A stretch of DNA of 64,000 nt. Source: Terramyces sp. JEL0728. Lineage: Eukaryota; Chytridiomycota; Chytridiomycetes; Rhizophydiales; Terramycetaceae. Made by a program: the position numbers and the translations under genes. The notes below the pieces were generated by a model that saw only the letters and a program-made list of their open reading frames with translations, was not told where the DNA came from and did no database searches. Below are positions 1-64,000 of the stretch, in pieces (within the stretch, counting starts at the first letter, position 1; each line of letters starts with the position of its first letter). The stretch covers positions 124,001-188,000 of the forward strand of contig JADIIU010000013.1 in NCBI GenBank assembly GCA_027603945.1. Direction: 5' to 3'.

Positions 1-2561
1 CCTATGTCATGCAAGTGTCCCACCCAAATCTGTCCATTAATAACTATACCCCATGGTGGATTTTTGATGTTAAGTTCAGGCATATCCGGTTTCAGGGTGA
101 TCAGTGTTTGCTGGATTAAATTTTCCATGTTCCTGGCGTATTCGGCGTAACTTTCATGAAAATCAGCCAGATGATTCGCTTTGAGGCTGTATTTATTAAA
201 ATCGAATCTGATTACAATACTAGCCCCGTGGTTGGATCCCAAAAATAGAAATTGATTTGTGATGTCAGGCCGCATATTAACAATAGTTCCTGGTAAAATC
301 GCAACCAATTTACTCCAACTTGGATTTGAAAAATTACTAATCCTGACCTCTGATTCACCTTCTTCGTTAATTACCGAACACAAAAAGAACCCTTCGTCAA
401 GACCGCAGAATGCTGTATACCACAAATGTTCGCCATTTAGGAGCAAGCCCTTTTGTTTTTTCAAAGATTCTACTGAAAGAGATAGATTGTTTTTAGACAA
501 CAGTAAAGCTTTGGAACTAGATTTTTTCTCCAGGGTGTTTTCCGCATTGTCTTCTGGTTTTACTTCCACTTTTGCTTCTTTGACTTTTTCTGGGATTTTG
601 TATTTCCAAGATTCGACCTTCAACAATGCATGACTAATCTCATAAGAAGTTGTGGAATCAAACACAAATTCTGCCGGGACAAACAAGCTGTGGATGATTC
701 CATTGGAGAGATTAACCACCAGTCTCCTTCCAGTGACTGCCGTCCCTTTCTTACCTCCACTAACAGTTTGGTCCTGTGAATTTATTTGCGTAACGCTCTT
801 CACTGGATTCTCAAAATTCACGAAACCTACAGGCGTGATTGTTACCGAACTTTTCGTAAACGGAAGGCTTATTTTTCCATCCGCATCTTTTTTAAAGTCT
901 AGATTGAAGAGGAAGATTGTTCCATCATCTGAAGCCGTTATCATTAACTTTCCGTCACTGGTAAAATAAATCAGAGTAATCGCCTTTTTGTGGGGTTTGA
1001 GCACAAATTGGACAATGAATCCGCTGGCTACTGTTGATACAATTCTTATTACACCGTCAACAAATCCAAGCGCAACAGTTGAACCCATCGCATCCAGGTT
1101 CTAATTTAAAAACATTTTACAGCTGGGATATACGATATATAACTTCCGCCTTGTGGGTAATGTGCTTTGTTTATCAATGTTCTTGCAATATAGTCATACA
1201 CATGAAGGTTGCCGTCTTTTCCAAAGGTGGACATCTGGTGTTTTAGTGGGCTGGTCCCAACTCCAGCTACTGGTCCAGAATGGAAAGACAGCACTTTTTC
1301 GCTGCTCCTCTTATGCAAATCCAATTTCATCAAATGGCCTTGCTGGTCCTGAATTAAATAATCGTGTGATGAATTCGGGAATCTTATAATAGATTTAATC
1401 TAGATGAACAACCAAATACCTTGACTTCCTTTGCAATAAGTATTTCATCAATAGGCTCCATTTCAAATACTCTGGGTGTAGAAACTGAGCTTCCACCTTC
1501 TCCAGAGCCTGTGGTAACATCTGCGTTATCAATTGTTTCTAAATCCCAAACACGGACAAATCCATCCTCTCCACCCGTGATTACTTCGCCCTCTCCAAGC
1601 AATATGACTTCAATGTGTCCTTGATGGCACGGCTTTTTCCCTTTAATGCCAATTTCACATTTAATCATGCCGCCATCCCAAAGCAACAAGTTTCCAGTCT
1701 CGGTGCTGGACAAGACCTTCCCGTCGGGCAATTGCATAAAAGAAGCAATATCCGATAATTCAGACGCTCCAAATTTACCCAAGTAGCCTTGTAGCTTCAA
1801 ACCTGTAAACGTTGAAGACATTCTCCAGAATTTAATATGGCCCATTCCAGAGGTGGTTAATATTCCATCGTTTTCTTGAGAGAAACTGACTCTGAATACA
1901 TCCTACTTATTAAATTGACAAACCTGAGAGAATGCTTTACTTCTCAGTATGATAGCTTCCTCCTTCCAATTCCAAATCGTGAGCATGTAGTCTGGGTCTG
2001 TTGCTACACTGGCCAGTTTATTTCCTTGGCTGTTGAATGAAATATCTGAATATCCTCTTTCAGCTCCTCCTTTTAATACACGGAAAATTGTCATTGACGG
2101 ATAAGAGTAAATGTAAATGTTTGGTTCGGACTCTGCATTTTCGGCAACAGCAATATATCGTTTGGATGGATGGACGCATATCGCGCCAATAGAGCCGTTA
2201 CTAATACCTTGCGTGTAGTATTGAGTAACTGTTTCCAAATCCAAGAATACCAGGATATTACCAATTGAAGAGACAATGATATTATCTTCAACGAAATGGA
2301 TATTTGAGCGTTTGTGAGACTGGAATCCAAATGAATGGCTAGATTACACAATTATTACATTAATCTGAACATATTCGGGTCAATTCGTTTCAAGTCGACT
2401 TTCTCCTCATACCTCAGTAAGGCTTTCGCGTTCTCTGACTGAAACTCCTTACCGTCGGCTATAGTGTTGTGATTTTCGAGCGTTTCTCCTACGTTGTCGT
2501 CAGCTGGTGTTGGTTCTCTGCTGCTTTCTGCTGAATTTGGGGTTTCTTCATCTTCATTCAT
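1..2561 (-). CDS. CFAP44: CFAP44 (WDR52) axonemal WD40 protein, partial
   Basis: WD40-repeat protein of the ciliary/flagellar axoneme; in the family CFAP44 works with CFAP43 at the tether of inner-arm dynein f. The start is the ATG at 2561 (protein begins MNEDEETPNS); the gene runs off the left edge, so the C-terminal part is missing. Exons read in order after removing a 20-nt intron near 2340, a 21-nt intron near 1900, a 20-nt intron near 1400 and a 20-nt intron near 1100. Diagnostic family segments include GHIKFWRMSSTFTGLKLQG, LPDGKVLSSTETGNLLLWDG, GEVITGGEDGFVRVWDLETI and SFHSGPVAGV. The first intron splits the HSFGF-like segment preceding the first WD repeat. The presence of this gene implies a motile flagellum. 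Identification rests on recall of the conserved CFAP44 repeat region; confidence is high. Confidence 0.9.
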
Positions 2562-2910
2562 TTTTTCGACGCGAGAACAAATTATTAGTCTCAATCCTAG
2601 CGCAATAGCGGGATTAGCAGATCACACGTCTGAGGCCGCCTCAGTGCAATTAAAAAGTTTCAAATTGTTTCATACATGGATATTGACTTTGCTTGTCGAA
2701 AATTATACTCCAACCGAGCCAAGTGGTAATCCGATATCCTAATATCTGCCGTATACCCAAGCCAACTGACCAGTGCAATATCTGTGTGTGTTTTCTTTCT
2801 AGTGGTGTGCCTCTTGGCTCTATGTGAGGCGACCTGTCAAACGCCTCAATCCTTCACGGTTTATTTAATTCCAAATGATGGCCAGTTTCAACTAAAATTA
2901 GATAGAAAAA
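2562..2910. other. Divergent intergenic region CFAP44 / secreted protein
   Basis: About 350 bp between two divergent start codons. No ATG-initiated reading frame of note and no RNA gene was seen. It presumably holds both promoters. An open frame near 2784-2972 has no ATG start and overlaps the following gene in another frame. Confidence 0.4.
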
Positions 2911-3696
2911 ATGGTTTATCCTATTTCTCTTGTTCTCGCTCTTTCCGTGTCTGCAATTCAATTTGGTTATGAAGTTGGAACAGACGCACCTCAAGCTACG
3001 ACTCAACAACCAGCTGCAACGTCAGATTTACCAGTTGCAGTTACAACCACTGTGCCGGCAGTTGTCACCACTACTAATGCACCAATTACTACTGCTGCTG
3101 CCCCAAAGCCAACCCCTACTGATTACCGAAAACCAAATCCTAAACAAGTGATCCATACTCCACAAGCAGCTCCTGCAAACGCTCCAAACAATCAAGACCT
3201 GCCTAAAGTTTCTCCTCAATCTAACCCTGCACCAGTTCCCCAAGATTTTTCTCAATCTAGCCCTCAACCCGTACAGCAGGGACAAAAGCAACAAGCTCAA
3301 AATATGCCAGTATCTCAAAATTACAATCCACAGTCCCCTCAAACCCAAAACTCACCAGTCGCTGCAAACACTTATCAACAGCCATCTAACCAAGACTTGC
3401 CTCAAGTCACTTTACTTTCTGCTATTAAACCAAAGTGCAATCATGGGTACGGTACTGCTCCTTACATGATGCAGTCGTCTGATTTGCCTATTGCAGCTGC
3501 TACTGAAGCTTACGCAGCTCAAGCTACTGATTCTCCAGCTGCTGGATATTCCGCTGATATTCCAACCGTAACCACCATAAAGTACAAATGCGCTCCAAAG
3601 ACAACCGATGCGCCAGTCATCGCTACACCAGCTGGCTACTATGTGCAAACAACTGATGCCCCGGTTATCGCTACACCAACCGGAGGTTACTATTAG
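2911..3696 (+). CDS. Secreted Thr/Pro/Gln-rich repeat protein
   Basis: A 261-aa single-exon protein. The first ~17 residues form a signal peptide (MVYPISLVLALSVSA). The rest is low complexity: a Thr/Ala/Pro mucin-like stretch (about residues 25-80), a Pro/Gln/Asn-rich stretch (about 80-165) carrying recurring DLP tripeptides, and a C-terminal part with short repeats of the type TTDAPVIATPxGxY (two adjacent copies end the protein) plus two Lys-Cys-containing segments (KPKCNHGYG, KYKCAPK). It looks like an O-glycosylated wall or secreted surface protein. An AATAAA lies about 20 bp after the stop. No known domain was recognised. Confidence 0.7.
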   Translation: MVYPISLVLALSVSAIQFGYEVGTDAPQATTQQPAATSDLPVAVTTTVPAVVTTTNAPITTAAAPKPTPTDYRKPNPKQVIHTPQAAPANAPNNQDLPKVSPQSNPAPVPQDFSQSSPQPVQQGQKQQAQNMPVSQNYNPQSPQTQNSPVAANTYQQPSNQDLPQVTLLSAIKPKCNHGYGTAPYMMQSSDLPIAAATEAYAAQATDSPAAGYSADIPTVTTIKYKCAPKTTDAPVIATPAGYYVQTTDAPVIATPTGGYY

Positions 3697-3783
3697 ATTG
3701 TCGTAAATTCAAGTAATAAATAAAATGTGTTTGTAAAGAGTCCTTCGCCTTGATAAATTTCGCGTTTATTTGTTTGCTGCAAG

Positions 3784-4746
3784 ATGTATCTTTGCTGTAG
3801 ATACAATATTCGTCAAAGATGGATTGCGTTCGGGGCTTTGCTGCTACTTGTAGCCTTCGTAGCTACTTTTTCATATGTCAACACTGAACTTGGTAACCAA
3901 AGATATGGTACTCGGAACTAATCTTAGCGGAGCAGATCGTATCAGCTATCGATCCAGATGATCCAAATTTCAATGGGGTTCGTATTTACAATAATGTCAC
4001 TTCATTTTCTCCTGCAACCGTGCAGGTAACAATCGTGTCAAATATCTTGCCTCCAGTGTCAAATGCTAGCCACTACACTTTTGACGTCAATGGGAAATTA
4101 TCGACTATCCAAGGGGATGAAATCTATGCGCAAATCGTTTCTCCCATTCCGATATTCGCGTCAAAGGCAAACTGGTATCCATTCGATACATATGACGCCC
4201 TGGTTGTCGCCAGCTGCAAGGAGGCACAGATCGCATTTGTACTCAATGCAGCAGTAGACGCATGGAGGACTGAATTCAATTTGTTGGACGAAGGTGAGCA
4301 GTTCATGTACTTGCAAATAACCATGACCCGTACATTCGTCACAATCCTTTTCTCAATCTTTGTCAACTTTATGATGTGGATCCTGTCCTTGTCTGCAATT
4401 TACCTTTCAGTGACGTCGTGTACCCGCAAGCGTAAAATCGAGCCACCAATGTACGTCTGGCTAATGTAGGATTGCAGGGATAGCAGCTTTACTCTTTGCC
4501 CTGCCAAACATTCGCAATGTGCAACCCGGGTTGCCCGCCATTGGATGCACTGCTGATATTGCAGGGTAGACCACAGTTAATTGTAGATTTTTCCCATCAA
4601 TGCTTTTGGTCGGGTTTTCAGTCGTGATTTTGATGTGGAATTACATTCTTAATAACCATCATGACAGACCAAAGTCATCCGTCTCAGAGCCGCTGATCAA
4701 AAGTACCCCAAGGACAAGTGTGTTCACAGCAGACAGTGTGGTATAA
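3784..4746 (+). CDS. DUF4436 integral membrane protein
   Basis: About 300 aa after removal of three mini-introns (20 nt near 3900, 19 nt near 4450, 21 nt near 4566); the spliced length closes in frame. One membrane segment near the N-terminus (IAFGALLLLVAFVATFSYV) is followed by an extracellular or lumenal domain containing the WYPFDTYDA motif, then three C-terminal membrane segments. Between these lies LPNIRNVQPGLPAIGC..D, which is typical of the DUF4436 family of bacterial and fungal membrane proteins. The function of the family is unknown. The stop codon is fused to the poly(A) signal (TAATAAA), and the stop of the convergent helicase gene is only 24 bp away. Confidence 0.75.
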
Positions 4747-4770
4747 TAAACAATATTTATTCAAAGATAT

Positions 4771-7700
4771 CTAATCAATATCAATTAAATCATCCAAATC
4801 TACTCCGTCCAAGAGATTTTCAGTGTCAAAATCGTCTGGCAGCGCAGGCGGGTTTTCAGTAGGTATTTCCATTGTGCAATCGAAAAATCTACCTTGAGTC
4901 TGCTCATATTCAACAAAGTCGTCTGCAACTACAAAATCAGCCATGCTACTATCATCTTCATCCACATCGCTGCTACCAGCATAAACTGCCCTTCTTGTTG
5001 GATGAATAATTTGATATAATTCGCCTTTTTTAGTATGATCATTGTAAACCATTTGAGTAGAAAGATCGCTTGTGCTTTGGGGCTTGCGGTAGATTTTATG
5101 AAAATCTTCTGGAGAATTGACTCTAGATTCATACTCGACTTTGTTAGTGATAAATCCAGATAAATTGGTATCCATATCCCGCTCATCTTCATCACTGCTT
5201 ATATCGGCTTGGTCGTTTTCGGATATGCCTGCTTCTTCGTCAAAATACACGGCGGCGTTCAGGTTCTTTTTGGTTTTCTTTCTTGGAGGGTATACGACAG
5301 TTTTGCTGTCCATTACAGGAGTTTTTCTAATTTTTGGAGGTTTCCTCGGCTGCTTTCGCAATTTTAATCGTTCTTGCAATGGTGTAGTTCTAACCAAGTT
5401 TGAATGTTGATTGACAGGATTAGGTGAGTTTAGTTGGTTTGGCGAGCTGGATAAAACGACATTCCGCTTCTTTAGTCCTGCTACTCTGCAGATTGGCGTT
5501 CTTTGTGGGTTAAAATCTGGAGAACTTGATAATATTCTGTTATTTAACACTTTCCGTATTGGGGTTTTATAAAATGCATCTTTGGAGCTTGAGGTTATAA
5601 CATTCACGGTAATACGGTTTTCGTGGGTATCAGTATTATTGTTTACGATGGCATCTATCTCGTCCCAATTTACATCTTCCAAATCATCAAAAAAATTATC
5701 TTGGCTGTTATTTACTGATGCGAGCGACTCTTGCCTACCCACTTGGGTTATTGGGATGGGGATTTTTGGTTCTTCTACAGCGGGTATTTCGACAGCATTC
5801 CAATCAAAATCTTCATCCGTGTACAAATCCTGACTTTCGTTGCCTTCAACTGTACAAAGTTTGTATTCTGGAGTTTGCGGAATGATAACATCCTCATTTT
5901 CAGTCATTGTTTCTTCTTTTATTACTTGTAGCTCAGCGTGCTCACAATCTGCCGTGAAATTACGATCGTTGCAGCTCTTTATATCCGCCTTCATGGGCGT
6001 CTCGTCGGCAAATAAATCATTGAATTCATAGTCTATTACCATATTATTTTTGGGAGTTGCAAGTATTTCTCTTTTCTTTGGCATACTTTGTTCTGCATCT
6101 GAATCATATTGTTTCCCTTGGGGTATTTGCTGTGACCCATACAAGGGACTGCTAGTTAACAGCTTAATTTGCACTTTTTCGAATCCTTGGATTTTCTTTC
6201 GTGGTGTTGGAGACTTTTTGACTGGTGAATCTGAAATAGCTTTCCTTGCAGTTCGGGGGATATATGGTTCGTCCAACTTGTACTCTTCCAGCTGTTGCAT
6301 CAATTCTACAAATTTGTTGCATCTTGCAGAACGGGGAATTAGCTTGAGCGGGAGATATGCAGTTTGCCAATTGGGAAACTTTGACATGTCTGCCTGATCG
6401 TATTCTATGGACATGAAGTTGTTTGTGTAAAAATCGATATCTTGCTCTGTCATTTTAACCTTTTTCTTTTTTGGAGCTGGTTTTGGGGCTATTTCCGGAA
6501 TTACCATTTTAACCTTCTCACATGCTGGCTTTTCAATATTTTTAGGAAATAACTTGGAGGTATCTCCAGAATACATGGAAAGCTTTGATGAATCGAACAT
6601 TGCCTTTTGTACATTTTTATACTTTGTTCTCGCCAACTTTACATCATCCTCTTCCTGTCCTTTGTTTAAAAGTAGGCAGATTTCCCCTCTTCGTTTTCTG
6701 CCCGTTCTGCCAATACGCTGAAGCATCTTTATAGGCGACTTTTTGTTGTCAAAGCAAATAATTAAATCAATTTCTCCGATATCTAAACCTTCTTCGCCAA
6801 TAGAAGTAGCAACGAGCACATTAAATAGTCCACTCTTGAAATCATTAATGATCTGCAGCTGCTCTTTTTGTTTGAGCCCTTTGCCCTTTTTCCCAGTACT
6901 TTGTCCAATAAATATTGCTGGTTTGACTAGCGGCTGGTGTTCTTTTAGAACGCTGCATATTTCTTCAACACTAGTCCTATACGTCGAGAATATCATAATT
7001 CTAGTTTCCATATCTACCGAATTTCCTTTCCGGGTTTCTTCAGTCACATATTCTTTGTGATTTGCAAAATGTTCAAGGACAATATTGACGAGCGACTGGA
7101 TTTTTGGATGTGACACAAAGGTGGGTTTAGCCATTTCCTCCTGCACATTGTTTAATATCTGAATTAACCCTCTGTCTTGAATAAAGTCCTTTTTCATCTT
7201 TGACAGATTTCCATTTTGTTTAGCCTCGACAATAAAATCATTGATGCTGGTATAAAAGGAATATATCCCTTCGTTAAATAAATGTTGAACAAAGCCGCAC
7301 AGGGTGATTGCAAATCCGAAAAGCCCTTCAATCACATTTCCGGTTTGTTTTGGTAATGAGCTTTTGTGTTTTCTCCAGTAATCTCTACTCGCAATTAAGC
7401 CATAAGGAGATGCTTTTTCTGGCGATTCAATTCTGTATGCTTTAAACTGGACTAATTTCTTCAAGACATTCCCCAAGAAAGGGCCAAATCTGGATTACTC
7501 ACAATGTACCTGTCAAACACTTTTTTCATCAAATCGCTCTGTTCCACTACCAATTCCCTTATGTTTTTTGAATGTACAAACGGTGCAACGTCAAAACTTT
7601 CTTCAGTGCGCGATTCAATTTTTTCAATGTTCAAGTGATTGATAACAGTCTGAACTTTTTGTAAATCCGACCCTGGAGTGGCAGATAAAGCTAGAACCCT

Positions 7701-8292
7701 AAACTTGCATTGCTGAATATTTAACTCTTTTACGACCTCTACATATGCGTAGTTTCCTGTTGATCTATGTGCTTCGTCAAACACTGCCAAAACCACCTAT
7801 CGTTAATCTATTCAACAATCATTTTACCTTTTCAGAAGGACAGATGTTTGTTTGCAAGTCATTCCTAAATGTTTCCGGTGTCATAAAAAATATCCTTCTG
7901 GTTTCCCACATCTTTTTCCGTAATTCAACACTAGAATGGCCGGTCAATTCCACTGTATCCTCCTGCGATATCCCTGTAATCTTGAAGCATGCTTCGATCT
8001 GTTGGTTCACCAGTGGTCTAGTTGGAGCCATGAAAACCATTATAGAATTAGGAAACCATCTGTAATAATTGTACATGATAACAGCTGCGATAAACGTCTT
8101 TCCCAATCCAGTAGGCAAGCACACCAGGGTATTTGAAAACAAGGAATTTTTGATGATGTTGTATTGGTAATCTCTCTGCTTGTAATTTATTGGAAATATC
8201 CAAGTCTTTAAATTCTCTGCATCCAGAACATGGGCTGAATCTCCATCTTCCTGAGAGAATAAATCCCTAAACTCCTCCACAACATTGCTCAT
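4771..8292 (-). CDS. FANCM: FANCM/Mph1-type DNA helicase
   Basis: SF2 DEAH helicase that, in the family, remodels stalled replication forks and recombination intermediates in the nucleus. About 1,156 aa. Start chosen at ATG 8292 (MSNVVEEF); the frame also opens upstream but only with TTG. Visible motifs: Walker A LPTGLGKT, motif Ia APTRPLVNQQ, DEAH box FDEAHRSTGNYAY, motif III LSATPG, motif V GLDIGEIDLIICFD and motif VI QRIGRTGRKRRG. The long C-terminal third is acidic and disordered with no recognised ERCC4 nuclease domain, so it resembles fungal Mph1 rather than vertebrate FANCM. Two introns: 31 nt at 7797-7827 and 20 nt at 7490-7509. The ATG lies only 24 bp from the divergent PCD start. 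Confidence 0.93.
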
Positions 8293-8316
8293 TGTCCAGA
8301 TTGACTTTTCCAAAGA

Positions 8317-8700
8317 ATGAAGAGATCAATTTCCACCAAACTCGAAGCTCTTGTTGGCAACCATTGGCAGCTGCAAACTAGCAAGATTTATAAAGAATTC
8401 AAATTTAATGACTTTACAAGTGCATTTGGATTCATGTCTCGTGTTGGTATCCCACGTTAATTTTAGCAATTCAAGCCGAAAAGATGGACCATCATCCAGA
8501 AGTAAGTTTCCAACATTCTTTACTCATTTCTGCTTTCGCACTTGATTTTATTGAGATGCTAACCCTAGTGGTTCAATGTGTATAACCAGGTCAACATTAC
8601 CCTAACAACGCACGACGCTGGTGGTCTTACAGAAAAGGATTATAAATTGGCAAAGAAGATTGACCAGATTGCAAAAGAAACTGGAATAGTCTGGGCATAA
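8317..8700 (+). CDS. PCBD: Pterin-4a-carbinolamine dehydratase (PCD/DCoH)
   Basis: A small enzyme (98 aa) that dehydrates 4a-hydroxytetrahydrobiopterin to regenerate the pterin cofactor. Three exons: a 20-nt intron at 8447-8466 and a conventional 67-nt intron (GTAAGT...GCTAACCCTAG) at 8502-8568. The spliced protein carries the family hallmarks: [19 protein letters not shown] with the catalytic His pair, WFNVYNQV, and [20 protein letters not shown]. It is the clearest demonstration in the window that one gene can hold both an ultra-short and a normal intron. An AATAAA lies about 15 bp after the TAA. Confidence 0.93.
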
Positions 8701-9344: not shown

Positions 9345-12300
9345 ATGGAGGAATTTGAAGCAGCTTGCAAAAAGGCACAGGTAATTTATTACTGAAAAGT
9401 CAATTGATCAAAACGAAAGAAAGGAAGCTGAGCGATATTTAAAGCAAATTCAGAGCCATCAAGATTCATTGGAGCTTTGCAAACATGTACTTTCAAATTC
9501 AGCCGAATCTACAGCACAATTCCACGCTGCAGTTATAATCAAAGAGATAATCACAAGGAACAAGACCGAAGAACGCCAGAAGTGGGTTCATTTCCTCTTG
9601 GGGTTCGTTATAGAGCGTTATGGATCGTATTTTTGAAATTAATCCAGAATATTGCATCATGTTAGAGGAGCAATACTACAAACTATCGCCATTTCTACAA
9701 AATTGGGCTGGTTGGAACAGAATGATCCAGTCAAGCAAGGTAACAGTTTGTAACGTAGATGTGATGAATACGCTCACGAATTTGATGACAAATGAATCGG
9801 TACACGCAAAACGTTTGGGATTAGCATTAATGTTTCAACTATTGAACGAGTTTCCGTGTACCAAAGCAACTTCGCTGGGATTGTCACTAGATTTCCACCA
9901 AAGCTGTCAAGTTTCCTTCCAGAAATCATGGCTGATCCTGTTGTTCCAAATGGTTTTACAGTGTCTTTTCCAAAACATGGTCGGTGAGACAAATCACGAT
10001 TTGGTAAGAGCGGCTCTGGCTTGTGCAGAAAAGATTCTGTGTTGGAATTTTGTTGCGAATGCATCATCTATAGTTAGAAGCAGAGACGAGAACCTGGACA
10101 AGGAAAAGAACCCTTTGAAGTTGCCAGTCGAATGGAGAAATGTGTTGTTGGTTCCAGAATTGCTCTCTCTGTTCTTTCAGGTAATACATGTTAACGCCAG
10201 TTATGCACGGTGTATTTTAATGAGCCTGATATGAGTGCAAAAACAATTACCTGTCTAACTCAACTAGCATCTGTTCATGGACCGATTTTTGACACTCAAG
10301 AAATGCAGCAAGTGTATGTCAACAATTTTTTGGGGGGATTCAAGGGATATTTGAGTAACGTATTGCACAAAATCACAAATCCTCAAAACCAAGTTGATAC
10401 TGCAGACAAAATTTATAGTTTAGCCCAAATATCAAATCATATTTTTAGATTTTCAAGCATCCATATATTAGCAAAGGTTTCAGAATTCCCAGAAATTATG
10501 AAAGGGTTGGGACAAGTTGCGGTTATCTGCCTCGATTTAAAAGCGGGTAATGTAGACGATACGTGGTTTTTGGACGCCGGAGATGATATTCTTCTTATGT
10601 GGGCTGCTTTTGGTAATATTTGTGTAATGTAGTTGAAAAATTCGACACATATTCCCCCGAGGAAATCCTGCAATTGATGGCGGACCCTGCAAAAAACCAG
10701 ATATTGTTTTTACTTTCGGAAATCGCGGCGGAGATTGTCAGCAAATACATCGAAGTCCATGTTATTCATACTGTTTCGGACGAAGAGGACGATGAATCTT
10801 ATGATTTCATGCAAAAAGATGTCGAATTGTACTCTGACCAGTTATTGCATATTTGCGTCCTATCCAGACTTAAAGTAGACCAAGTACTTGCAAAGTTAAT
10901 CAACATTATCAATCAAAAGACGCAGCAATTAACTCTACTATTCCAATCTGGTTCGGGAGACGCATCTGGTGAACTGATGGCAGTGCAGGAACAAATCCAT
11001 TGGGCTGTCCTGATTAGTGGTCATGTATTGGCAGATTCTGCTTTTGGGGAAACACCGCAGATTCCAAATTCTATTTTGAAAGCTTCCAGCAACAGCACAG
11101 TTGAAAACGATCCAGCAGTCAATTTGACGAAATGTATTTTCAACCTACTAAATTATTTAAGTTTCCCTGTGGGGTCTCCGCAGCATGACGCCTGCAGCCC
11201 CTTGCTGCTCGAAACTCTATTCTGGTTCACTGATAGATGGGCCACCACTTACTTGTTTGCTGATATGAATGAATATTCCATCAAGAGGTAATTAATTTTA
11301 ATCTCAGCAAGTCCCTGCACGATTTCTGTGGATTAAACGGTGGAGCGCCAGCTATTTTGGACTTTATCTTAAGCAAGATTGAATTAAACGCAATTATATG
11401 GCATACCGAATTGGACATTGTTAGTCAAATCATTACACTGCTTCAGGGGCTATCCAAGAACAAAGCTACTAGGGACCAAATGCTCGCTAATGGTAGTCAT
11501 TTATTAATTAAGCCAAATTTACCCAAATTGTTCACTATTTCTTGTTGAACATTTCCAGATTGCCATCTACCGTTCATAGTCCGATCGTACAAACAATCGT
11601 GTACACTGCCACACATGCAACCGATGATGCTGTAAAGCACTCTTACTTCAAGAACCTGAGTGATGCCATCGAAGGGTCGTTGAACTCTATTATACAAAGT
11701 CCAGATTTCGGCCAGCACTTTGAAACAACCGTCACTAGAGAAAAGGTTATTGTGGCTCTGGAGCTGTTTGGTGGTTTGGCACTTTCGGTGGACGAAACGA
11801 CGACAGTTCAAATTTTTGAAACTTGTGGGAAGCACTTTTCGTCGTTTGTCAAGCTGCTCGATATCTACAAGTCGCATCCAGACGTTGAACTCTACATTAT
11901 CACAATTTTCAAAGATTTAATCAAGAATCAGAGCTTTGATGCACTACAGCAGCAACATTGCCAATTGCTATATCACGCCGTGTTGGAACTTATTCAAGTC
12001 TACACAAAGAATGAAAGCGGAAGACATCGTGCCCATCAATCGCTCGATGAAGAAGAACTATATGAAGATTTATCTGTGCTGTTAGAATTGTTAGCGGGAT
12101 TGATTGCTTCAGAGTATGAAGGGTTTGGTAACATTGAATTAATCTAGAACGAGAAACAGTCCTGGCTAGAATGCAGAAAAATGAAAGCGATATCGACGTT
12201 TCCAAAGTAGTTTTTGTTGGTGTTAACAACTTGTTGGCTCTGATCACTAAGGAAATGCTGGAATTCCCTCGATTGTGTTTGGACTACATGCACCTTGTTA

Positions 12301-12886: not shown

Positions 12887-12972
12887 GATGACTGCGATAA
12901 TAAATGCCATAATAAATTCAAAATCAAAAATTTATTGGTGCGCAATTCAATTCGCAGAATTCAAATCAGAAA

Positions 12973-15312: not shown

Positions 15313-15389
15313 GTTGGATAAACTCGCGTTTTTCAAGCACACAAGATATTAGCCACCTGATGTGTAAAAGTCAATGTCAGTAAATATAT

Positions 15390-16907: not shown

Positions 16908-16995
16908 ACCGCTTTTTATATGTGTTTGACCCCATTATCCCTTTGTTTACATTGAGTGCAAAAATCCCTCAAAACAATACTGGCGAATTACTTTA

Positions 16996-19352: not shown

Positions 19353-19411
19353 TTGAAAAAAGATTTTGAAAGTTGGCACCTGAAATCCAAGAGTTAAATT
19401 ATATATTAAAA

Positions 19412-48410: not shown

Positions 48411-48486
48411 TAGGATGAAAAGTTTATACAAAAAAATTAGGCTTACATTTGCAACAGTAGAACAGATATCTGAAATATAGCATATA

Positions 48487-50756: not shown

Positions 50757-50771
50757 GAAAAATATAGGATG

Positions 50772-53754: not shown

Positions 53755-54496
53755 ATGAGAGGAATCGCTCGTTTACTCTCTCGCACTTCAATTAGAAAAA
53801 TGTCCGCAAAAAGAGCTGATCCAGACCCAATATTTCCAGTTGGATTTCAAATATGGGAACAACAACAAACTGGAAAACCAAAAGAATATAAACCTCAAGT
53901 AAACGAAAAGGAAGAGTAATAATTTCCTGACATAGCTTTCTTGTCCATCCTCTTTACACACCGCCAGCAGAAACAAACACTGGATTCGAGTCACCACTTG
54001 ACAAATTACCTAAACCATTACATTTCCCCGAATACGATCAATCTACCCCTCCAGTGCAAAAAATTGGAAAGGATTTCCCCAATGGATGGAGTAACGTGTC
54101 ATTTGGAAATGCGGCAGAGGACCCAATTGGAACATATCCGCGTCTGGAAAAGCAATATGCAATTTTAAAGGACGCACACTCGTACTGGGATCAGCAAGAC
54201 CGCCGTAACTATGGCGAAATTGTTCAGGACAACGATACAATTACAAATATTTGGGGTATCGGTGTAGAAAGAAGCATGGGTGCATATTTGAAAGGATTGG
54301 CTGGGGCAGCCGGATTGCTTGGATTCGTAGCATTTGGGGTATATCTATACTCTCCAGAAAAACATGTTTTATGGGTATTTCCTGATTTATGTAGGCTGAA
54401 AAAGATTTGCCGTTCGATGGACTTCGTTTGGAGCTAGGAGGAGACCCAAAAGACCCGGAAGATAAATTCTTTGCCGCAAACACATATAAGCTTTAA
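53755..54496 (+). CDS. NDUFB8: Mitochondrial complex I subunit NDUFB8
   Basis: 233 aa after two 20-nt introns (GTAATAATTTCCTGACATAG near 53916; GTATTTCCTGATTTATGTAG near 54375), start ATG 53755. The N-terminus MRGIARLLSRTSIRK is a basic mitochondrial presequence. The conserved block IGTYPRLEKQYAILKDAHSY, then WDQQDRRNYGEIVQDND and IWG, and the membrane segment LKGLAGAAGLLGFVAFGVYL match the accessory subunit of NADH:ubiquinone oxidoreductase. The organism therefore keeps complex I. An AATAAA follows 2 bp after the stop. Confidence 0.9.
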
Positions 54497-54517
54497 GAAT
54501 AAATTCATTTTTATTGT

Positions 54518-57500
54518 TCAGCCCTGGAAAGATAACCCATTCCAAATCCAAAACAGGATAGAGTTCACAGTATCGTTAATATGTACATACTCAACGGGAT
54601 CTCTGATTCCTTCTCTGCTGATAGCAAACATTTCGAACCTTGTAGTGTTTTCCGCGGTTCGCAATCTGAGGTATAGCAAATAGTCTTCATTTGCTGGGTT
54701 GAATAGAATCAGATGCTGGGCTCTATCATCTGGCCCATTGAGATATCTTGCAAACTTTTGATGTGCCTGCACCAGGTAAATCAATATACTCTGCCATGGC
54801 AGATTTGAATTGAATAGCTCATTCAAAGTAGAGTCCATACTGCAGACATTGACGATGTTTGGGGATATCTTTTCAAGAAACATCCTGGACCATTCAAGAG
54901 AACTTTGAAAGAACGACTCTTGCCTTAACTGTGCCCAGAGATTGTCTCTTCCATAATCCTTCACGACCTATAGATGAGCTGTATTTACCTTTTCTAGAAG
55001 GTCGTCAATGCGCTTCTTTGACAGGGTGACTATATCCTGCAGGTAATAGCCCGAGCTGATATATTCATGCAACGGGTTGTCATCAAGTTGGGAGGAGGGA
55101 GACGATTCAAACTCCTTGTACGGAAAGCTATTCATCCTATTCACAACCAAAGCAAAGAATTCCAGCTCAACCAGATCGTTTTCTTTCACTTCCCCGGCGT
55201 TGTCGGCTCCACAGATCACCAAGCTGTATGTAAAATCAGAAACTGAATCGCCGCTGTCAGTGTTCAGATTATCGAGCGTTATTCCAAAAGCAACGCACTC
55301 TCCTTTAAACATAATCGACTTGAAACCATAGAGAGATGGGTGTTTCATGATATAGCGGAACAGCTCATTCTTGATCAAATTGCTTCTGTACACTTCATTT
55401 GCGATTCTGTTTCTGCAAAACCTTGCCTTTCTTGGATTGAGGGACACAAAAGTTCTTAAAACCCTGACTAAATCCACAGGAAGATCAATGGTCTGTTCCA
55501 GATTCAAAATATTCCTAATGTAGCGCAAGTGGAAATCATAAGAAACTGGGTTAGCAACTACTTACAAGATACTATGTGTGAATATTTTGTAATGTTGGAA
55601 CATTCAATGAGGAAATCATCATCTTTGCTGTGGACGCTGTCAGTGGTGTTGTAGGCAAAAGTAAGGACATTAACTGTTGCAAAATACGAGTAGAATCCAC
55701 ACTGTACCAAAATAACTCCGCTTGGGAAATATTTTCGCAGGAATAATGACGGGGTTTCCACCAAAGTCTCTGCATTTATTGCAAAGGCTCCGCCAAATTT
55801 TCCTGATTCGTGGGAGGTCATATCCACTCTAGCCTTTTCCATTCCAAGATGTTCTAAATATTCAACATACTGGTCCAGAAATTCAGAAATTAAATCCTTG
55901 AACCATCTTTCTTCAAGCTGTAATTGAGCGTGCGTCAACTTTGGGGTAAGAGCAGAAATGGATTTACCTAATGAGAGAAGATTCACGGAATTAATATTGT
56001 TGGTGTAGGCCAAAGATTCCCATTTTGATAGTAAATCACTCCTGCATTCCGAAAAAAATATTGGCGATGATGAAGAGTGGATAAGCTCCAACGATTGCAG
56101 CACTTCAGACATTTCCTTGAGAGATAGTGGATTCAAGGAGCTTTCATGGCTAATGTCTGACAAACTTTTGGTGATGTGAGCAGATCCTATTGGTCTATTT
56201 CCAAATCTAAAGAATAACTCTAGGAAATCAACAATTTGGGTCTGAAGATGAACTGCGTCGTATCCCCCTATGTGATAAATAAAGTCCAGTTCACGGAACT
56301 TTGCAGCGAATGGCCCACTAATCCTCAGAGCTGCATCCGAAAAGGTAAATAACTGCGGTCCGTATTTTGAAGTTGTAGCGGTAAATTTGGCCAATTGCTT
56401 CCCCGTGTAGCTCTCCTTTCTGGTGATGAATTGCTGATTTATTTTTGCCCAGTTCAATATCTTTAACATTTTTAAAAAGAATTTGTCAGACTCTGATTTT
56501 TTCCAGCTAAAGTTAGTATTGGTTACTTGTATGTGCTCACACTTACAGATTGCTGTTCCAGCGACACTACAAAGAATGTACTGCGTTTCCCATAAATCGG
56601 AAAGTAAGGATAAAATGCATCCGGAAACATAAATATTTCTTCGAAATCTCCATTTTGGAGCTTAGTCAACGAGCCTCGTCTCCCGGTAGATATGGATTCT
56701 TGATCGGCATCTGAAACTGAGTCATTTGATGCATGCCGGGCCAGCTTTATAGTGCTCAACCTCGGACTGCCTGGTGCAATACCGCCAGACCCATCTGATG
56801 CTGCAGATTGTCTTCTGGGGCCTTCATTTCGATCAGGAGGACTGTAAATGTCAACCGCGCCGACAATAACATATCTCTTTTCTGGTATTGGGATTTCTGA
56901 TTTTTCTTTCCCTTCTGATGCCGACATTAGCTGGTCAATTAAAATCAAGCTTCCTTCTGTGTTGTTGAAAAAGTAAGCCTGTAGTTCTTCATCGGAAAGT
57001 GTCCCTCTAATTCCACAAGCTATCGTATCAACAGGTAATTTGGAGGATATTTTAATTGACTGGATAACAGGATTCAATATGGAAGCCCCCTTTTCCAATA
57101 TCTGCGGTAGTGTGGACGTAACTTGTAGAAATTCCTGGGCAGGCTTTCCTTTCAAGCCATTTTTCGATTTGGATTTGTCCACAGGCGGGAGCTCTGGCAA
57201 CCTATTTTTGTTTGGCAGTGTGTGCCATGCAGTTGACCGATAGTAACTTTCAACAGTATAGTCCACCAACGTATGCTGGAAGGTAAGATCAATCTTTTCA
57301 ACTAATGCTTTTAGATTAATTGGGCCCTTTTTCCACAGAGTAACGCCAATTTTGTAGCCTTCCCATTGGCGGGATTCATGTTCATCTAAGGTGTGTTTGG
57401 CATAGAAGGACTTGTTGTCCAAAACTACATCCTTGTTGTTCCATAATGTTAACGGGGCAGCGGAAGGAAATAAAATGGAATTATTTCTGTCAAATGGCGT

Positions 57501-60500
57501 GAGAGTGATTGAAATGATCCCTTCCCCAACTGCAGTTTCTAGTGCGTTCAATCTGCGGGAAGAAACACAATTGTAGATAAACGACATGTCTCCAATATGT
57601 AATTCATTCGAGGTATTCTTTGTTGGTTCATCTATAATGTCTTGGCCAAATTTGGATTTGTAGTAATCTTTGAGTAATGTGCATAAATCATTTCCAGACA
57701 TTTGTTGTAGAAAAAGAAGCATAGCTTGACGGAGCAAGACAATAAACAGGTGGGGATTTTCTAGTTCTTTAACTAGCAGATAGGAGAAATAGTAGGGTTC
57801 GACATTGCAAGGCATGATAAAGTCTAAATCGGCCTTGGTGAGACGAGCTGTGGAATTTCTCGCAAGAAAAGTTCCCAGCACATTTTGGGTTACTGATTCA
57901 ATTTTGTTATCAATGATTTTCAAGAAATCCACACTAATATCGGACGAAGGCTTTTCCAACCCGTATACATACACTGTCAGGTATTTTTCAAAGTCCTTTT
58001 TCGACGTGCCAGCAGATTTAGTATCTAACGAAAGCTTTGACCCTCGGTCCAGCTCTTCGCTGTCAGATGGTTCCAATATCACATAAAAGCTGGAAGAAAA
58101 TGCGAGGACTGATTTTCGGTTGGAAACTGCGAGTCCTTGCATAGAGTTCATGATATTATTTAGCACTTGGACTGGTCTTATTCTCCAGTGAATTGTAAAT
58201 CGTTTCTCAAGCTGTAACGGACAAGCTAGAGAATGCAAAATGTTGTCTCTGGTTGAAGTTTCTTCAGGGAAGAAATCAAGACCATCCCTTGCGTTAATAT
58301 TCACTCACCTTGCCAAGTGGGTCTCGTACAGTTCCTTTAGCAAGTATCTTTGGTTTGCAGATTTTTGGCAGGACTGGATTGATTGATAAACGTTTTGTAA
58401 GATAGACAGTGAAACAGCAGTAGTCTCCAAAGTGAAAAAGTAGATATCAACATAGATTGAGGAAGAGTTGATTAGCAGCCAAAACTTGTTGGTTCCTGGA
58501 ATTAATTTGCGTTACTTGAGTCATTTGTGAGATAAAAGCAGTGCCCAGAGTAGACGATGTGGTTATTGAATATCTGACACTTTACCAGGTCAAGTTCAAA
58601 CAACTCTTTGCATTCAGCATCCAAATAATGCATATCTACTTGAAAGTGCATCGACGAATCATGTGTGACTTTAAAATCTGTTTGGTCTCTAATGGTGAGT
58701 GTGTCCGTTTTGTAATGGCGTCTTTGCAACGAGGAAAATGTGTAGTGTATAACATGCTCATCGAAACTTAGGTGGCTGTTCCGTATGATTTCAGCTAAAA
58801 TGATATCTTGGAATACATGGTAGATAGATTCCTTTAAGCATTGTATAGCTTCTTTTTGAGTATTTGTCAACAGGAATTCGTCGCTTTCGAGTGGTAGATA
58901 GTAAATCTCCAAAATTATTTCTACTTTTTGATCAGATTGGTGGTGCGGAAGATGCACCAAATCTTTAGGGTTTGAGAAATTCAAATCGGACCTTTTTAGG
59001 AATATGCCATCGCTGCAGTTTACTGTGATTTCCTCAGCGGGAGAATGGTATTTTACAGAGAATGAAATCAGCATGGGAGTGTTACTATAGCCCAGCAATT
59101 GCTTCATGTCATCGAGCGTCTTTGATTCATCAATCTTTGGGGCATGGAAGTACGTGTAGATATCCTTTCCACCGTTTACGAATGCAGATGCGTACGCAAA
59201 GTTCTGTTTCAAGATGGCGGCAATCTTTACATTGCCTTCACTAGAGTTAGGAGAGTATACTTGAATAGACCATCCTGGTTACTCCCAAAAGAAGTAATAT
59301 AGTACAAATCTGTGGCTTCCAGCGCTATTTTTTTTGAGATAACTACTGATTGCAATCGATTGTATTCATCTTTTGAGATTTCCTTTGCAAGCAAGAGTTT
59401 CAAGTAGGCGGTTTTGGCAATCGAGTATTCAAAACATCTTGTAAATTCTGATATGACTTCAAGGGCAGAGTATTCTTGAGAATCGGTTGAATCACTGTTT
59501 GTAATGAACTGAAATGTTGCAACCCCAGCATATTCAAATTTTTTAAGTTTGATATCCAGCATCTTTTCGTCAGCATGTCCTTGGAACAGCGTTGTCCCGT
59601 CATTTGCGTTAGGGATTGCAGAGTATGACAGTTTAAAGGTATTGCTTCTGGTATTGAAGAAAAATAAATTTTGGCGGACACACACTACAAAAGCAATAGC
59701 AATACTTGTAAAGTTGATTGAGTCGATATTTGGTAGTGCAACTATAATTACTTTCTCTGTATCATGTATCTTTATGAAAAGTTGAGCTTCGCTGAATTTT
59801 GGAAATGAAATTGGGATTTCATTTAATTGATCTGCAATCTGATCAATAATTGCTTTAGGCGAGGTTTTTGAGGGCCATTGGACCCACTCGCTGCAATTGA
59901 CAGACAAGTATTTGGTAAAATATCCAAGAATGACAGAATTGAAATCAATCGCATCTCTATCCTGCAAATAGATATTTTCCACCAGGCAGATATCTGTGCA
60001 ATACTCTTTCTTTGATAAATCAACGGGCTGAACAGATTCCAAAGTTGGGAGGTTGAAATTAAATGAATTCTTGTCTTTGAGAATACCTTGCAGCTGAGAA
60101 ATACAATCCAGATTTTTGGAGGGATGCAGATTGTATAAATTGTAGGAAAAATACGAATTTTGCATGAGCAATGGCAAATGATAGATAGTTGGCACATAAA
60201 TACAATTTTCGGAATCGGTAAACCGGCTTTGAATGTGAATCATGCTTTTGTTGACTGTGTAGTCAAAAGCAAAAAGCTGCATCAGGAGCGCACAATCGCT
60301 GCTAAATACCTGCTTTGAATAAGTCACAAAATATTCTTTCAGGATCTGTTCGTTTACTTCCCTGTTAGGCTCCACCCACAATTCAGTGGCTAGCAAATAG
60401 TTATCAGGATTCCAAAGAATAATGTACTGAACCGAACAGTACTCATTCTTTGATATTTCAATTTCTTTGTAGAAAGTAACAGTCCCTGGTGTTTCTGCCA

Positions 60501-62905
60501 GTCTAAGGAACCCGTCGTTTGATTTGGAATTGTACAGCAAGATAAATGAGGATTCAAATATTCTGTTGAACGCCAAGACTTTGTGATTTTCGTTATGGTT
60601 TAAATCAGAAAACCACACCCAGCGAATATTTCTTAGAAATGTCCTGGCTGGAGAAACATTTGGGCGGAATAGTTCTGATACAATGTCATCAGTGCCTGGC
60701 TGGGTGATCAGTCCGTCCTCCATCGGCGAGTAACAGATTAATAGTCCATCAGAAGGCTTTATGCTTGGGTATATGGGATACATTGAGACTTGATTTGTAC
60801 GATTGATATGTTGCAGGCTCATCAAGTCCCGTTTGAAATTGTGGATGATTTGCAATTTTTCCTCCATTGTACAGGAAAAGAATTGCAAGACTATAATCAT
60901 CAAGCTTTCAGTTTGCCAACTAATATTCAAAAGGCAGTATCCAGAAGGAGTGTGCGTTTCGTCGTAAACCCACTTGGCGTGTGAATATCTCGTTAAAGTA
61001 ATATCAGCCCACGACAATAAATATCTAGAAAGAAACATTGAAGCAACTTGATATCTAGTTCGGTTTACCTCCGTGTTGGTGAATAGCGACTTTGCAGCTC
61101 TTTCTCCTAAATTTGTGTGAGTGGACGTTGATTTCAAAAGCAAGCAAATCCTGTGCGTGTCCAGAATAAATTGCTTCATCGAGACTGTTTGATTTAAATA
61201 CTGCCAATAGCTTGGTGGGATTTCTGAAGGGTTTTGGATATTAATTTCGGACAAAACCTGTGATTAATTCTTCCGGTACCTGCAAGGTTTCATCAACTTC
61301 GGATATAGCTTTTAATAATGCATGCAGTTGATTTAATTGGAGGTAAATTTCGTCGTTGATTGAATCGCCCTTTATAGTGTCGACGTTATGGATGTTTAAA
61401 AAGAACACTGCAAAGGAATGGTGGGCTATTACGCTAAGTTCAATCTTCATTGGTCTTGAGGTGGGATAGTAATTAATTAGCTTGGATCGGTCCGGTTTAT
61501 CCGCATCCCAAGAGAATTTAACGGTGTACTGCACTCTATAGTTGATTGCTAGTGGTAATTGTAAAGTGATTTTTACATTCTGTTTTTTTAAAGTGCTTTT
61601 AGTACATTTGATCCCAACCACATGGAAACCCTCATTCAGTCGCGCCTGCAGCAATCTCTTTAAACTCACCACTTTAATCTTGTAGCCCCTGTGAAGACAA
61701 AAGATTTCAACAACCGTGGGAGGAATCGAATCCTTTGCCCATGGGTAATTTTCTTCCTCCCTCAGAGTCTCTTGCCTTTCTTCAATATCGGTGTCGATTA
61801 ATTTGGTAGCTTGTGTATCCACTGACCTATGTCAATAGTGAGACTACTTTTCTGCTTCCTCGAATTGGTTCCTGAACTTTTTACTGTCCTTTTCGCTGGT
61901 CAGCCTAAAGTTCCTCATGCTATACAGATTTTGGTAAATATTTGGTTTTGAAGATATTTTTAGCTCTTCTTCAATATACGGAAAAGCTTCCGCATACATA
62001 AGGGATCCCCAAGTACAATCTGATAAGAGACGCAAATATTCTCTGTTGGTAACATGTCCAAGATCCATCATTGGTGAAAACCCACTTGAAGATCCGACTT
62101 GAATTATCCCGAAATTGATATAGTCTCTTGACATTACCCTACAGCATTCTCTGGTTTTCTGCAAGTCTTTTTCAAATGTGATCCCGTCTGTTATATAAAT
62201 CAGTGTGGGCAGGCAATCTGCAGGAAGCAAACCCAGCGTATAAATCCCTAATTCCAGCGTATCCATCTCTGTCTTGCATTTAAAGTCACTTTGTAAATTT
62301 TCATTCTCGTAGTTAATCATTGACGTGTAAATTAATTCCGCAATTTCGAATAGGTTATCAATTGTGATCCGCTGATGATGTAGAAAGACTTTGAATGGTA
62401 GTTTTCCGCCTTCTCCAATCACAGTGAGCACCACCTCTGGTTTCACCACTGTTACACTCCGGGTGCTATAATTTCTAATTTCAAATGGTTGAATCATCCC
62501 TCGCACTACTTTGCAGATTCTTGATTAAAAATATATACGTTTCAAAGGCAACGGAAGATAGCACTTTGTTATCGACCGTGCTCGTCGAGTTGCTGCAATC
62601 TACAATTATCACAAGCCTGTTATTTGTTGCGACAGTTGATATTTGAGTATTCAGAGTCAATTCCAGTTGGGATGATTCATCTGCTTCAATGTTCAAAATT
62701 TTGAAAATGCTGTCGCTGAGATCGTTCATGGAAACGGTCTGGTTCAGGTGAGTGAGGTACCATGATATCAATTGGAATTTATTGAAATTTGTTGGGTCTT
62801 TAATTCCCAAAGTTATTTTCCTGATTTCCACCATAAATTTAGTTGTGAAGAAAAAGAGATAAATCTGAGATATTGTTAATGTACAGTAACTGAATAGGCA
62901 TGCAT
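54518..62905 (-). CDS. SZT2: SZT2-like KICSTOR subunit (giant protein)
   Basis: About 2,700 aa, the largest gene here. Start chosen at ATG 62905 (MHAYSVT), joined by a 20-nt intron at 62865-62884 (GTACATTAACAATATCTCAG) to IYLFFFTTKF; a shorter alternative begins at ATG 62834 (MVEIRKITLG). N-terminal SWYLTHLNQTVS, RLVIIVDCSNS and TLIYITDGITF with FGIIQVGSSSGFSPMMDLGH match the beginning of SZT2; further down WVYDETHTPSGYCLLNISW and DNYLLATELWVEP match its middle, and the C-terminal part (FGGAFAINAETLVETPSLFL) its end. In animals SZT2 scaffolds KICSTOR, which recruits GATOR1 to lysosomes to restrain TORC1 when nutrients are low. Many mini-introns; not all boundaries were traced. Confidence 0.85.
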
Positions 62906-63107
62906 GTCTGAGAGATATTATAACCTCGGCGATCGCAACTATCCACTGCTAATTTTAATATAAAGATACAAGAACCAGGGATAATCCTGACAACAGAAAC
63001 ACCAAGCGTGTTCTCCCAAATTAACAACCGCCTCGTTGCTCTCTGTGTTGCGTAACAGAGCAGGAATAATTAGTCCGAAAAAGTTTGAAATTCAGACAAA
63101 ATCCGGA
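62906..63107. other. Divergent promoter region SZT2 / RTEL1
   Basis: About 200 bp between the two proposed starts. The RTEL1 reading frame stays open upstream of ATG 63108 back to about 63036 but only with a TTG, so an upstream exon is possible. No other feature was seen. Confidence 0.35.
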
Positions 63108-64000
63108 ATGGCCAGAAAGAGAAAGATAGTGGAAATGTGGCCGGATCTGATAAAGAATGAGAGAGAAGTACAACGATTAAAGGAGCTGGAGAACTTTCAC
63201 AAGGATGCATTGCAAAATCAAGTTCACCTTAATATACTTGGCGTTCCTGTTAATTTCCCATTCAGTCCGTATATCTCCCAATTGGAAATAATGACCAAAG
63301 TAAATTTGAAATAACGAGATTATTAAAGCAATCATTAATCATGAAAATGCGATATTGGAGTCACCAACTGGGACAGGTTACCATTAATTCATCCAGGTAA
63401 AACGTTATCGTTACTTGCGTCAACATTGAGCTGGCTAGCTCACGAGAAAAGAATGCAGGCTATTAACGCACCAGTAGCTCTTCCGAATATGAGGGATTAT
63501 TTGCCCAATGAAGAATTATTGGGGAGAACAAGTGGAAGGAACAAAAAAGTTGAAATTGCATATGAAGTTCCGGGGAAAGAAATACCCAAAATATTCATTA
63601 GTTGGTAATAAATCGTTGAAACAAGTCGGACTCAGAAACAAATTGATCAAACAGTGAATGAATTGCGAATTAAAACAACCCTTCGACCGAAAATGGCAAT
63701 TATGGGAAGTAGAGACCACATGGTAAACCATCTTTAATTTGGTGTATAAATCCTGAAGCAATCAAGAGCCCCAACAAGAATGAAGCATGTAGAGATATGC
63801 GAAAAAGCCGCACCTGTGAGTACATGAATCATAAACAGCTCACAGAAAAGTTTGCAAATGCGATTTGGGATATCGAGGTACTTTGGTTTGATGCTAGGAA
63901 CTAGTGCAAGAAGGGAAAAAGAGAAAGCAGTGCCCGTATTATGCTTCTAGATTGTTGGCTGCTAAAGCTGAAGTGGTATTTGCGCCGTATAACTATATTG
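63108..64000 (+). CDS. RTEL1: RTEL1-type Fe-S DNA helicase, partial
   Basis: N-terminal third of an XPD-family helicase that dismantles T-loops, D-loops and G-quadruplexes; runs off the right edge. ILGVPVNFPFSPYISQLEIM opens the helicase core. A 19-nt intron (63300-63318) and a 20-nt intron (63377-63396) follow, the second splitting the Walker A codons ESPTGTG/KTLSLLASTL. Then FISCRTQKQIDQTVNELR, the four Fe-S cysteines (HM-CINPE, ACRDM, RTCEYM, KQCPYYAS), and WDIEELV...EVVFAPYNYI. A 20-nt intron before the first Fe-S Cys (63723-63742) lacks an AG end. About 35 residues before the helicase core (MARKRKIVEMW...) are extra relative to animal RTEL1. Confidence 0.9.

Follow-up and report, generated by a model that had tools for sequence, protein, structure and literature searches.

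Results

Tiny introns in a 64-kb window

The window analysed here is a stretch of 64,000 nucleotides of nuclear DNA from Terramyces sp. JEL0728, a chytrid fungus of the family Terramycetaceae (Chytridiomycota, Rhizophydiales), part of one contig of a 15.0-Mb assembly in 231 contigs. It contains genes, among them those for exportin-4, xanthine dehydrogenase (XDH) and a C2-type phosphatidylserine decarboxylase (PSD2), and these genes are interrupted by introns of about 20 nt (Table 1). A gene decoder with splice signals and lengths learned from the data (trained decoder) called 111 introns in 25 gene models. Of these introns 102, distributed over 23 models, were 19-23 nt long, i.e. 54 of 20 nt, 20 of 19 nt, 19 of 21 nt, eight of 22 nt and one of 23 nt. 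A preliminary description had traced more than 60 introns, almost all of 19-22 nt, over about 30 genes by hand. The observation was confirmed, and the three 20-mers it quoted lie exactly at the positions listed in Table 1. Its statement that most are exactly 20 nt long was correct within the window, where 54 of 102 have this length, but not for the larger sample described below (169 of 367). Neither a tRNA nor any Rfam family at the gathering threshold was detected in the 64 kb.

Length distribution in the genome

The window was sampled together with a 10-kb stretch from each of 20 other contigs, so that 264 kb on 21 of the 231 contigs were covered. Two counts carry the proof of a length peak. 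In the flat-prior decoder codon usage was the sole score, and all intron lengths between 10 and 150 nt had an equal prior. With GT-AG ends it yielded 286 introns, 145 of them of 19-22 nt. As a control, 19 other dinucleotide pairs were put in place of GT-AG; each produced 244-288 'introns', just 6-23 of which fell in this length range. AT-AC ends gave 23 calls at 19-22 nt, inside the control range.

The second count was free of gene models. The raw motif GTA..YTAAY-N(1-2)-YAG, counted per total length, occurred 45, 82, 33 and 15 times at 19, 20, 21 and 22 nt, respectively (total 175), against a background mean of 3.8 per length over 26-80 nt. Between 23 and 60 nt the highest single count was 10, at 37 nt. 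The reversed sequence contained 20 such motifs at 19-22 nt, and replacement of GTA by six other trinucleotides gave totals of 3-28.

The trained decoder, which draws on the signals and lengths it has learned, called 405 introns in the sample. Their lengths peaked at 19-22 nt with a mode of 20 nt (70, 169, 88 and 33 introns of 19, 20, 21 and 22 nt), and 367 of the 405 were 18-23 nt long. These tiny introns were present in all 21 stretches, and each 10-kb stretch outside the window had between 5 and 22 of them, in keeping with the genome-wide use that had been claimed. Their density in coding sequence was 1.75 per kb. At least one was present in 118 of the 153 gene models, which together spanned 83.5% of the sampled sequence. 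Extrapolation from the 367 sampled gives about 20,900 tiny introns in the whole genome. Thus, wherever the genome was sampled, tiny introns were the rule.

Restoration of orthologous proteins

Judged by alignment with orthologues, removal of the tiny introns restores the proteins of three genes. XDH was compared with 18 orthologues chosen from at least 120, and PSD2 with 14 chosen from at least 45. A junction was scored by pairwise alignment as gap-free over 16 residues. This test replaced a gap count in a multiple alignment of XDH, which had given 0 of 12 at three introns, an artefact of insertions in other rows; pairwise, the same three introns were gap-free in 14 of 17, 4 of 18 and 17 of 18 orthologues. 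Altogether, 14 of the 17 XDH and PSD2 junctions were collinear and gap-free in 80% or more of the orthologues compared. Retaining any single one of the 17 introns resulted in a truncated protein. Spliced XDH was 86% identical to the protein of Boothiomyces macroporosus and 70% to that of Globomyces. Spliced PSD2 was 94% identical to the protein of Boothiomyces sp. JEL0866, with 831 residues in both.

For exportin-4 the comparison could be made within the same strain. The spliced open reading frame of 1120 residues was 100% identical to the deposited 929-residue exportin-4 of Terramyces sp. JEL0728, in which the last six of the nine introns had been spliced identically, in line with the preliminary description, which had named this gene among those restored. 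Intron 1 was backed by Globomyces, introns 2 and 3 by Kappamyces and Globomyces. The deposited protein is 191 residues shorter at its N-terminus, apparently through failure to recognise the first three tiny introns. In B. macroporosus the XDH model begins near the site of the first tiny intron, and it has three additional residues at junction 3 and two fewer at junction 6. From this model, relatives of Terramyces probably share the tiny introns and are mis-annotated.

Domain matches were also scored for smaller genes. With 19 nt removed at 46368-46386, synaptobrevin scored 105.6 instead of 88.1 bits. Spliced NDUFB8 matched NDUF_B8 with residues 103-205 (24.2 bits; cut-off 21), and the Pterin_4a match of the spliced gene at 8317-8700 had 115.8 bits and extended over positions 8-91 of the 91 in the profile.

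Anatomy of the tiny introns

The donor was GTA, with A at +3, in 91% of the 367 tiny introns and continued A/T-rich; the commonest hexamer was GTAATT (47 of 367). At +5 there was T in 47% and G in 19%, and donors matched CAG/GTAAGT (exon/intron) on average at 5.4 of nine positions. G at -1 was found in 152 of 296 introns without G at +5, compared to 23 of 71 introns with +5G (P=0.005, Fisher test), a trade-off that is expected of donors pairing with a standard U1. The minor U12-type donor is RTATCCTT. Just five of the 367 tiny introns started with GTATCC, and by this measure they are not of the U12 type.

A branch motif YTAAY or YTGAY was present in 269 of the 367 introns and a looser YTNA in 77. 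In 315 of these 346 motif-bearing introns the branch A was 13-15 nt past the first G, and in 287 it was 5-6 nt short of the last G. Introns of 19 nt were mainly laid out as 13+5, those of 20 nt as 14+5 or 13+6, those of 21 nt as 14+6 and those of 22 nt as 15+6. A fixed branch-point geometry and a narrow length range thus occur together, as in genomes with ultra-short introns. The few nucleotides between branch and AG cannot accommodate a pyrimidine tract.

The combined information content of donor and branch/acceptor was about 12.9 bits, which is an upper limit because the same signals had served to call the sites, versus 9.5 bits required to specify 21,000 sites within 15 Mb. In spliced coding sequence, intron-like segments with a signal at or above the median real intron numbered four at the four lengths 19-22 nt and 67 at the 54 lengths 27-80 nt, i.e. 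about equal per length. Hence, if length played no part in recognition, false introns would be many times more frequent.

A stop codon was located inside 85 of the 91 called introns with a length divisible by three, and stop-free introns of such lengths are hard for the decoder to see. Uncalled motif-bearing segments in sense orientation within genes included 7 of 29 21-mers, compared to 0 of 132 segments of 19, 20 and 22 nt. Selection for stops in this class was considered and dropped, as it is confounded by ascertainment.

Longer introns, abutting introns and micro-exons

Among lengths up to 150 nt longer introns are rare. Of the nine calls above 25 nt in the window, two were truly 19 nt (9381-9399 and 46368-46386), two look genuine and five were unsupported, three of which seem on inspection to join neighbouring genes. 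One of the two is the 67-nt intron at 8502-8568, which lies inside the nearly complete Pterin_4a match. The other, the 31-nt intron at 7797-7827, was judged by inspection of the reading frame and by comparison with human FANCM. All 26 introns of XDH, PSD2 and exportin-4 were tiny.

The 285 intervals between adjacent tiny introns, taken from the 21 stretches and as many as 19 further loci in this genome, included five of at most 25 nt, namely 24, 13, 4, 0 and 0 nt. The 4-nt exon, CATG, is flanked by two 21-nt introns in a gene for protein disulfide isomerase (locus L015, 8598-8643, contig C7, minus strand). All one- or two-intron parses of a 126-base stretch with GT/GC-AG ends and introns of 10-80 nt were compared. 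The sole parse that restored FYAxxCxxC was the one with the CATG exon; it yields FYAPWCGHC, as in the active site of protein disulfide isomerase.

The two zero-length intervals are abutting introns. In a TBL1-like gene (locus L025, 5370-5411, minus strand) the 42 nt removed correspond to two complete 21-nt introns, and the spliced protein aligns with TBL1XR1 gap-free at the cut. In the window, 25473-25511 (plus strand) can be parsed as introns of 20 and 19 nt with a zero-length exon or as one intron of 39 nt. Both pairs may reflect recursive splicing, or each may be one intron, of 42 and 39 nt, respectively.

Splicing machinery

A complete U2 small nuclear RNA (snRNA) was identified with 140 bits, and its branch-recognition sequence GUAGUA was intact. 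All four core factors searched for, U1-C, U2AF65, Slu7 and Prp18, were present. U1-C matched with 9.3e-13. U2AF65 increased from 251.7 bits for the best unspliced piece to 334 after splicing (cut-off 310.3), and two pieces of Slu7 with 139.2 and 104.2 bits became a single full match of 289.2 bits. The gene models of all four hold tiny introns themselves; those of U1-C and Prp18 are incomplete. A search for altered splicing factors had been suggested in the preliminary description. Among the factors looked for, U2 RNA, U1-C and U2AF65 showed no alteration; U1 RNA was not found (see below).

Discussion

Nature of the tiny introns

Taken together, the approximately 20-nt segments are almost certainly real spliceosomal introns. 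They are classed as such from the GTA donor, the YTAAY branch and the YAG end, the intact U2 snRNA, the core factors searched for and the restored orthologous proteins, in agreement with the nature first proposed for them. We consider it very probable that ordinary U2-type introns have shrunk here to a near-minimal, almost fixed format. They would be recognised by intron definition, with the length itself as part of the signal. The U1 duplex (exon -3 to intron +6) and the duplex of U2 with the branch would nearly touch on 20 nt, so that an early release or handover of U1 is probable. U1 would thus leave, or pass the donor to U6/U5, as U2 engages. Such a sequential handover has in our view an even chance of being the actual mechanism; the weak donors with 5.4 of nine matches and G at +5 in 19% fit an easy release of U1. 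Because no pyrimidine tract fits between branch and AG, U2AF65 cannot rely on one there and would have to bind 5' of the branch or act otherwise. The 3' site would be the first AG past the branch.

More tentatively, the spliceosome could be gated by length, with hardly any activity outside a frame of 19-22 nt in which the branch position is fixed. Longer segments would then mostly be chains of tiny introns, including zero-length exons with recursive removal and micro-exons down to 4 nt. We regard this extension as possible, though doubtful.

Several observations weigh against the interpretation as shrunken U2-type introns. Removal from the RNA is deduced from protein orthologues. Three junctions (39217-39239, 52969-52989 and 52326-52344) lie in linkers of variable length and were gap-free in 4 of 18, 6 of 14 and 2 of 14 orthologues. 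No branch motif was recognisable in 21 of the 367 tiny introns, and T-richness 5' of the branch was slight. The decoder had a ceiling of 150 nt, and longer introns are invisible to it. According to work in yeast, Slu7 and Prp18 matter only for longer branch-to-AG distances. The short distance in Terramyces had led us to expect their loss; this was wrong, as both are kept, contrary to the simple expectation. Finally, two snRNAs were not found in the genome. The standard U1 snRNA starts with ACUUACCU. Rfam searches for U1 at E 1e-3 and E 10, a two-part pattern and a search with ATACTTACCTKR did not identify it; four matches to ATACTTACCTKR were rejected as they had no U1 in Rfam to E 5 and no Sm-like pattern within 220 nt. 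U6 gave Rfam matches below the cut-off only and no match to human U6 DNA. The two weak matches (27.4 and 26.9 bits; gathering 44) are near-identical copies of one stretch and were judged probably not to be U6. These copies are located on different contigs (L037, C199:4823-4928, and L038, C111:34941-35045) and perhaps represent a repeat. Nothing follows from the missing U1 and U6, which may be due to an assembly gap, an interruption, divergence or limits of the search.

Alternative explanations

If the spliceosome were specialised, with an altered U1 pairing to GTAATT, the failure to find U1 snRNA and the prevalence of T (47%) over G (19%) at +5 would be accounted for. Yet the compensation between -1G and +5G is that seen with a normal U1, and U1-C is present. 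In addition, U6 was equally not found, so the missing RNAs may reflect assembly gaps or limits of the search. We therefore consider an altered U1 unlikely.

Somewhat less likely still is a mixed population, in which the tiny class is merely the commonest and many introns of 50-300 nt were missed. The 31-nt and 67-nt introns look real, 35 of the 405 calls exceed 40 nt, the decoder ends at 150 nt, and raw-motif counts at 37, 38 and 43 nt (10, 8 and 9) are above the mean. On the other hand, even the largest of the counts at 23-60 nt is far under the 19-22 nt peak, XDH, PSD2 and exportin-4 have exclusively tiny introns, two long calls proved to be of 19 nt, and most of the sequence is already inside gene models.

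It is very improbable that the 20-mers are insertions from assembly or sequencing, or programmed frameshifts. The evidence for removal comes from sequence, and each cut removes a stop or frame break (17 of 17 tested), which algorithms reward. Yet false splice pairs reached just 6-23 calls versus 145, the branch motif at a fixed distance was seen independently of gene models, the segments are lacking in the proteins of other species, and the depositors' own model cuts six of them. Excision at the DNA level, like that of internal eliminated sequences of ciliates, or ribosomal bypassing would fit short uniform inserts by themselves, with no other support found, and can practically be dismissed in view of the GT-AG ends, a branch motif matching U2 snRNA and tiny introns in the splicing genes.

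Relation to known ultra-short introns

Ultra-short spliceosomal introns are known from other organisms, and those of Terramyces are close to the smallest on record. More than 800 introns of 18-21 nt are described for a chlorarachniophyte nucleomorph (PMC10245619), a near-identical narrow range with many introns in a compact genome. The nucleomorph is the relict nucleus of an algal endosymbiont, whereas Terramyces has a chytrid nuclear genome with about 21,000 introns by extrapolation. Introns of 15-16 nt occur in Stentor and other heterotrich ciliates, with the branch at the 10th of 15 nt and a tail of 5 nt (PMC9505925). In Terramyces the branch position is likewise fixed, mostly at the 14th-15th nucleotide with 5-6 nt to the last G, and both retain core snRNP (small nuclear ribonucleoprotein) proteins and GUAGUA of U2 (PMC9505925). 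The ciliate introns are shorter, found in 18% of genes and without a strong branch consensus, in contrast to YTAAY and 118 of 153 gene models in Terramyces.

Mikrocytos mackini resembles Terramyces in uniform ultra-short lengths and conserved motifs, yet it is a parasitic rhizarian whose spliceosome is reduced and whose introns, of 16-17 nt, number 224 (PMC10245619). Paramecium and Nyctotherus are given as nuclear genomes with solely ultra-short introns of about 25 nt (PMC5014332). They are ciliates, and their introns are slightly longer; Paramecium favours stops in introns with a length divisible by three, while no such claim is made for Terramyces. Among opisthokonts, the microsporidian Encephalitozoon cuniculi is a fungal relative with very short introns, but the 37 introns of this reduced parasite cover a wide range of 22-76 nt (PMC3629993). 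Where a survey of 644 fungal genomes deals with short introns, it names Cryptococcus with a mean of 63 bp and none near 20 nt (PMC8476143).

In the open-licence literature, a scope that does not include subscription papers and preprints, no title on such introns in chytrids was found among the matches listed. The fungal host therefore seems to be new. The preliminary description had placed the introns in a flagellated opisthokont, which a chytrid is, as chytrids have flagellated zoospores. Its remark that no opisthokont with such a norm has been described stands as far as titles go, with the reservation that short introns as such, in small number, are on record for E. cuniculi. The tiny introns are already spliced in at least one deposited gene model of Terramyces, yet apparently nobody pointed them out.

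The smallest class of spliceosomal introns is thereby placed in a fungus, near the best-studied spliceosomes of yeasts and animals, in a genome rich in introns that has kept those core factors that were searched for and is neither that of a reduced parasite nor a relict nucleus. A long-standing question thereby becomes testable, namely how 20 nt can serve U1, U2, the branch and the 3' site at once, and whether length acts as a signal. Annotation pipelines damage genes with such introns, as the 5' loss in exportin-4 and the start of the B. macroporosus XDH model illustrate.

Features of the window

Table 1. Genes and introns of the 64-kb window; positions are those of the window.
Feature	Position	Strand	Tiny introns	Basis or remark
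20-nt intron GTAATACATGTTAACGCCAG, exportin-4	10181-10200	+		also removed in depositors' protein
20-nt intron GTACATTGTGAGTAATCCAG, helicase-like gene 4771-8292 (presumably FANCM-like)	7490-7509	-		gene model only
20-nt intron GTATTTCCTGATTTATGTAG, NDUFB8	54375-54394	+		NDUF_B8 match of spliced protein
Exportin-4 gene	9345-12886	+	9: 9381-9399, 9627-9647, 9740-9758, 10181-10200, 10613-10632, 11288-11307, 11493-11512, 12128-12147, 12475-12494	
Xanthine dehydrogenase (XDH) gene	35681-39805	-	7: 35826-35846, 36869-36889, 38455-38476, 38643-38664, 39022-39042, 39217-39239, 39580-39599	
C2-type phosphatidylserine decarboxylase (PSD2) gene	50772-53464	-	10: 51076-51095, 51457-51475, 51566-51584, 51712-51731, 52326-52344, 52550-52568, 52723-52742, 52756-52775, 52969-52989, 53249-53268	
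PSD2 13-nt exon	52743-52755	-		between two tiny introns
Pterin-4a-carbinolamine dehydratase gene	8317-8700	+	8447-8466 (20 nt)	rare 67-nt intron 8502-8568
OSTF1-like SH3/ankyrin gene	24291-25012	-	24510-24529, 24739-24758, 24836-24854	
GAF/PDEase gene	21894-24184	-	23337-23356, 23654-23674	
Longin/synaptobrevin gene	45903-46588	+	46114-46132, 46368-46386	second intron initially called 37 nt
NDUFB8 gene	53800-54496	+	53916-53935, 54375-54394	
31-nt intron, one of few longer	7797-7827	-		frame inspection
2710-residue gene (presumably SZT2-like)	54518-62834	-	9: 54968-54988, 55546-55565, 56507-56526, 58288-58308, 58496-58515, 59241-59260, 61258-61279, 61827-61847, 62520-62538	gene model only
Gene model	7-2561	-	30-49, 1101-1120, 1400-1419, 1886-1906, 2339-2358	model only
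Gene model	3784-4746	+	3908-3927, 4451-4469, 4566-4586	model only
Gene model	12973-15312	-	5	model only
Gene model	15390-17975	-	3	model only; probably fused neighbours
Gene model	18471-21589	-	7	model only; probably fused neighbours
Gene model	25239-25819	+	25473-25492, 25493-25511, 25573-25592	model only
Gene model	26060-27966	+	26306-26325	model only
Gene model	27975-31158	-	10	model only
Gene model	31177-33671	-	8	model only
Gene model	33732-35659	+	6	model only
Gene model	40117-42763	-	41237-41256, 41740-41759	model only
Gene model	43659-45510	-	44103-44122, 45034-45053	model only
Gene model	46607-49418	-	47819-47840, 48039-48059, 49292-49311	model only; probably two fused genes

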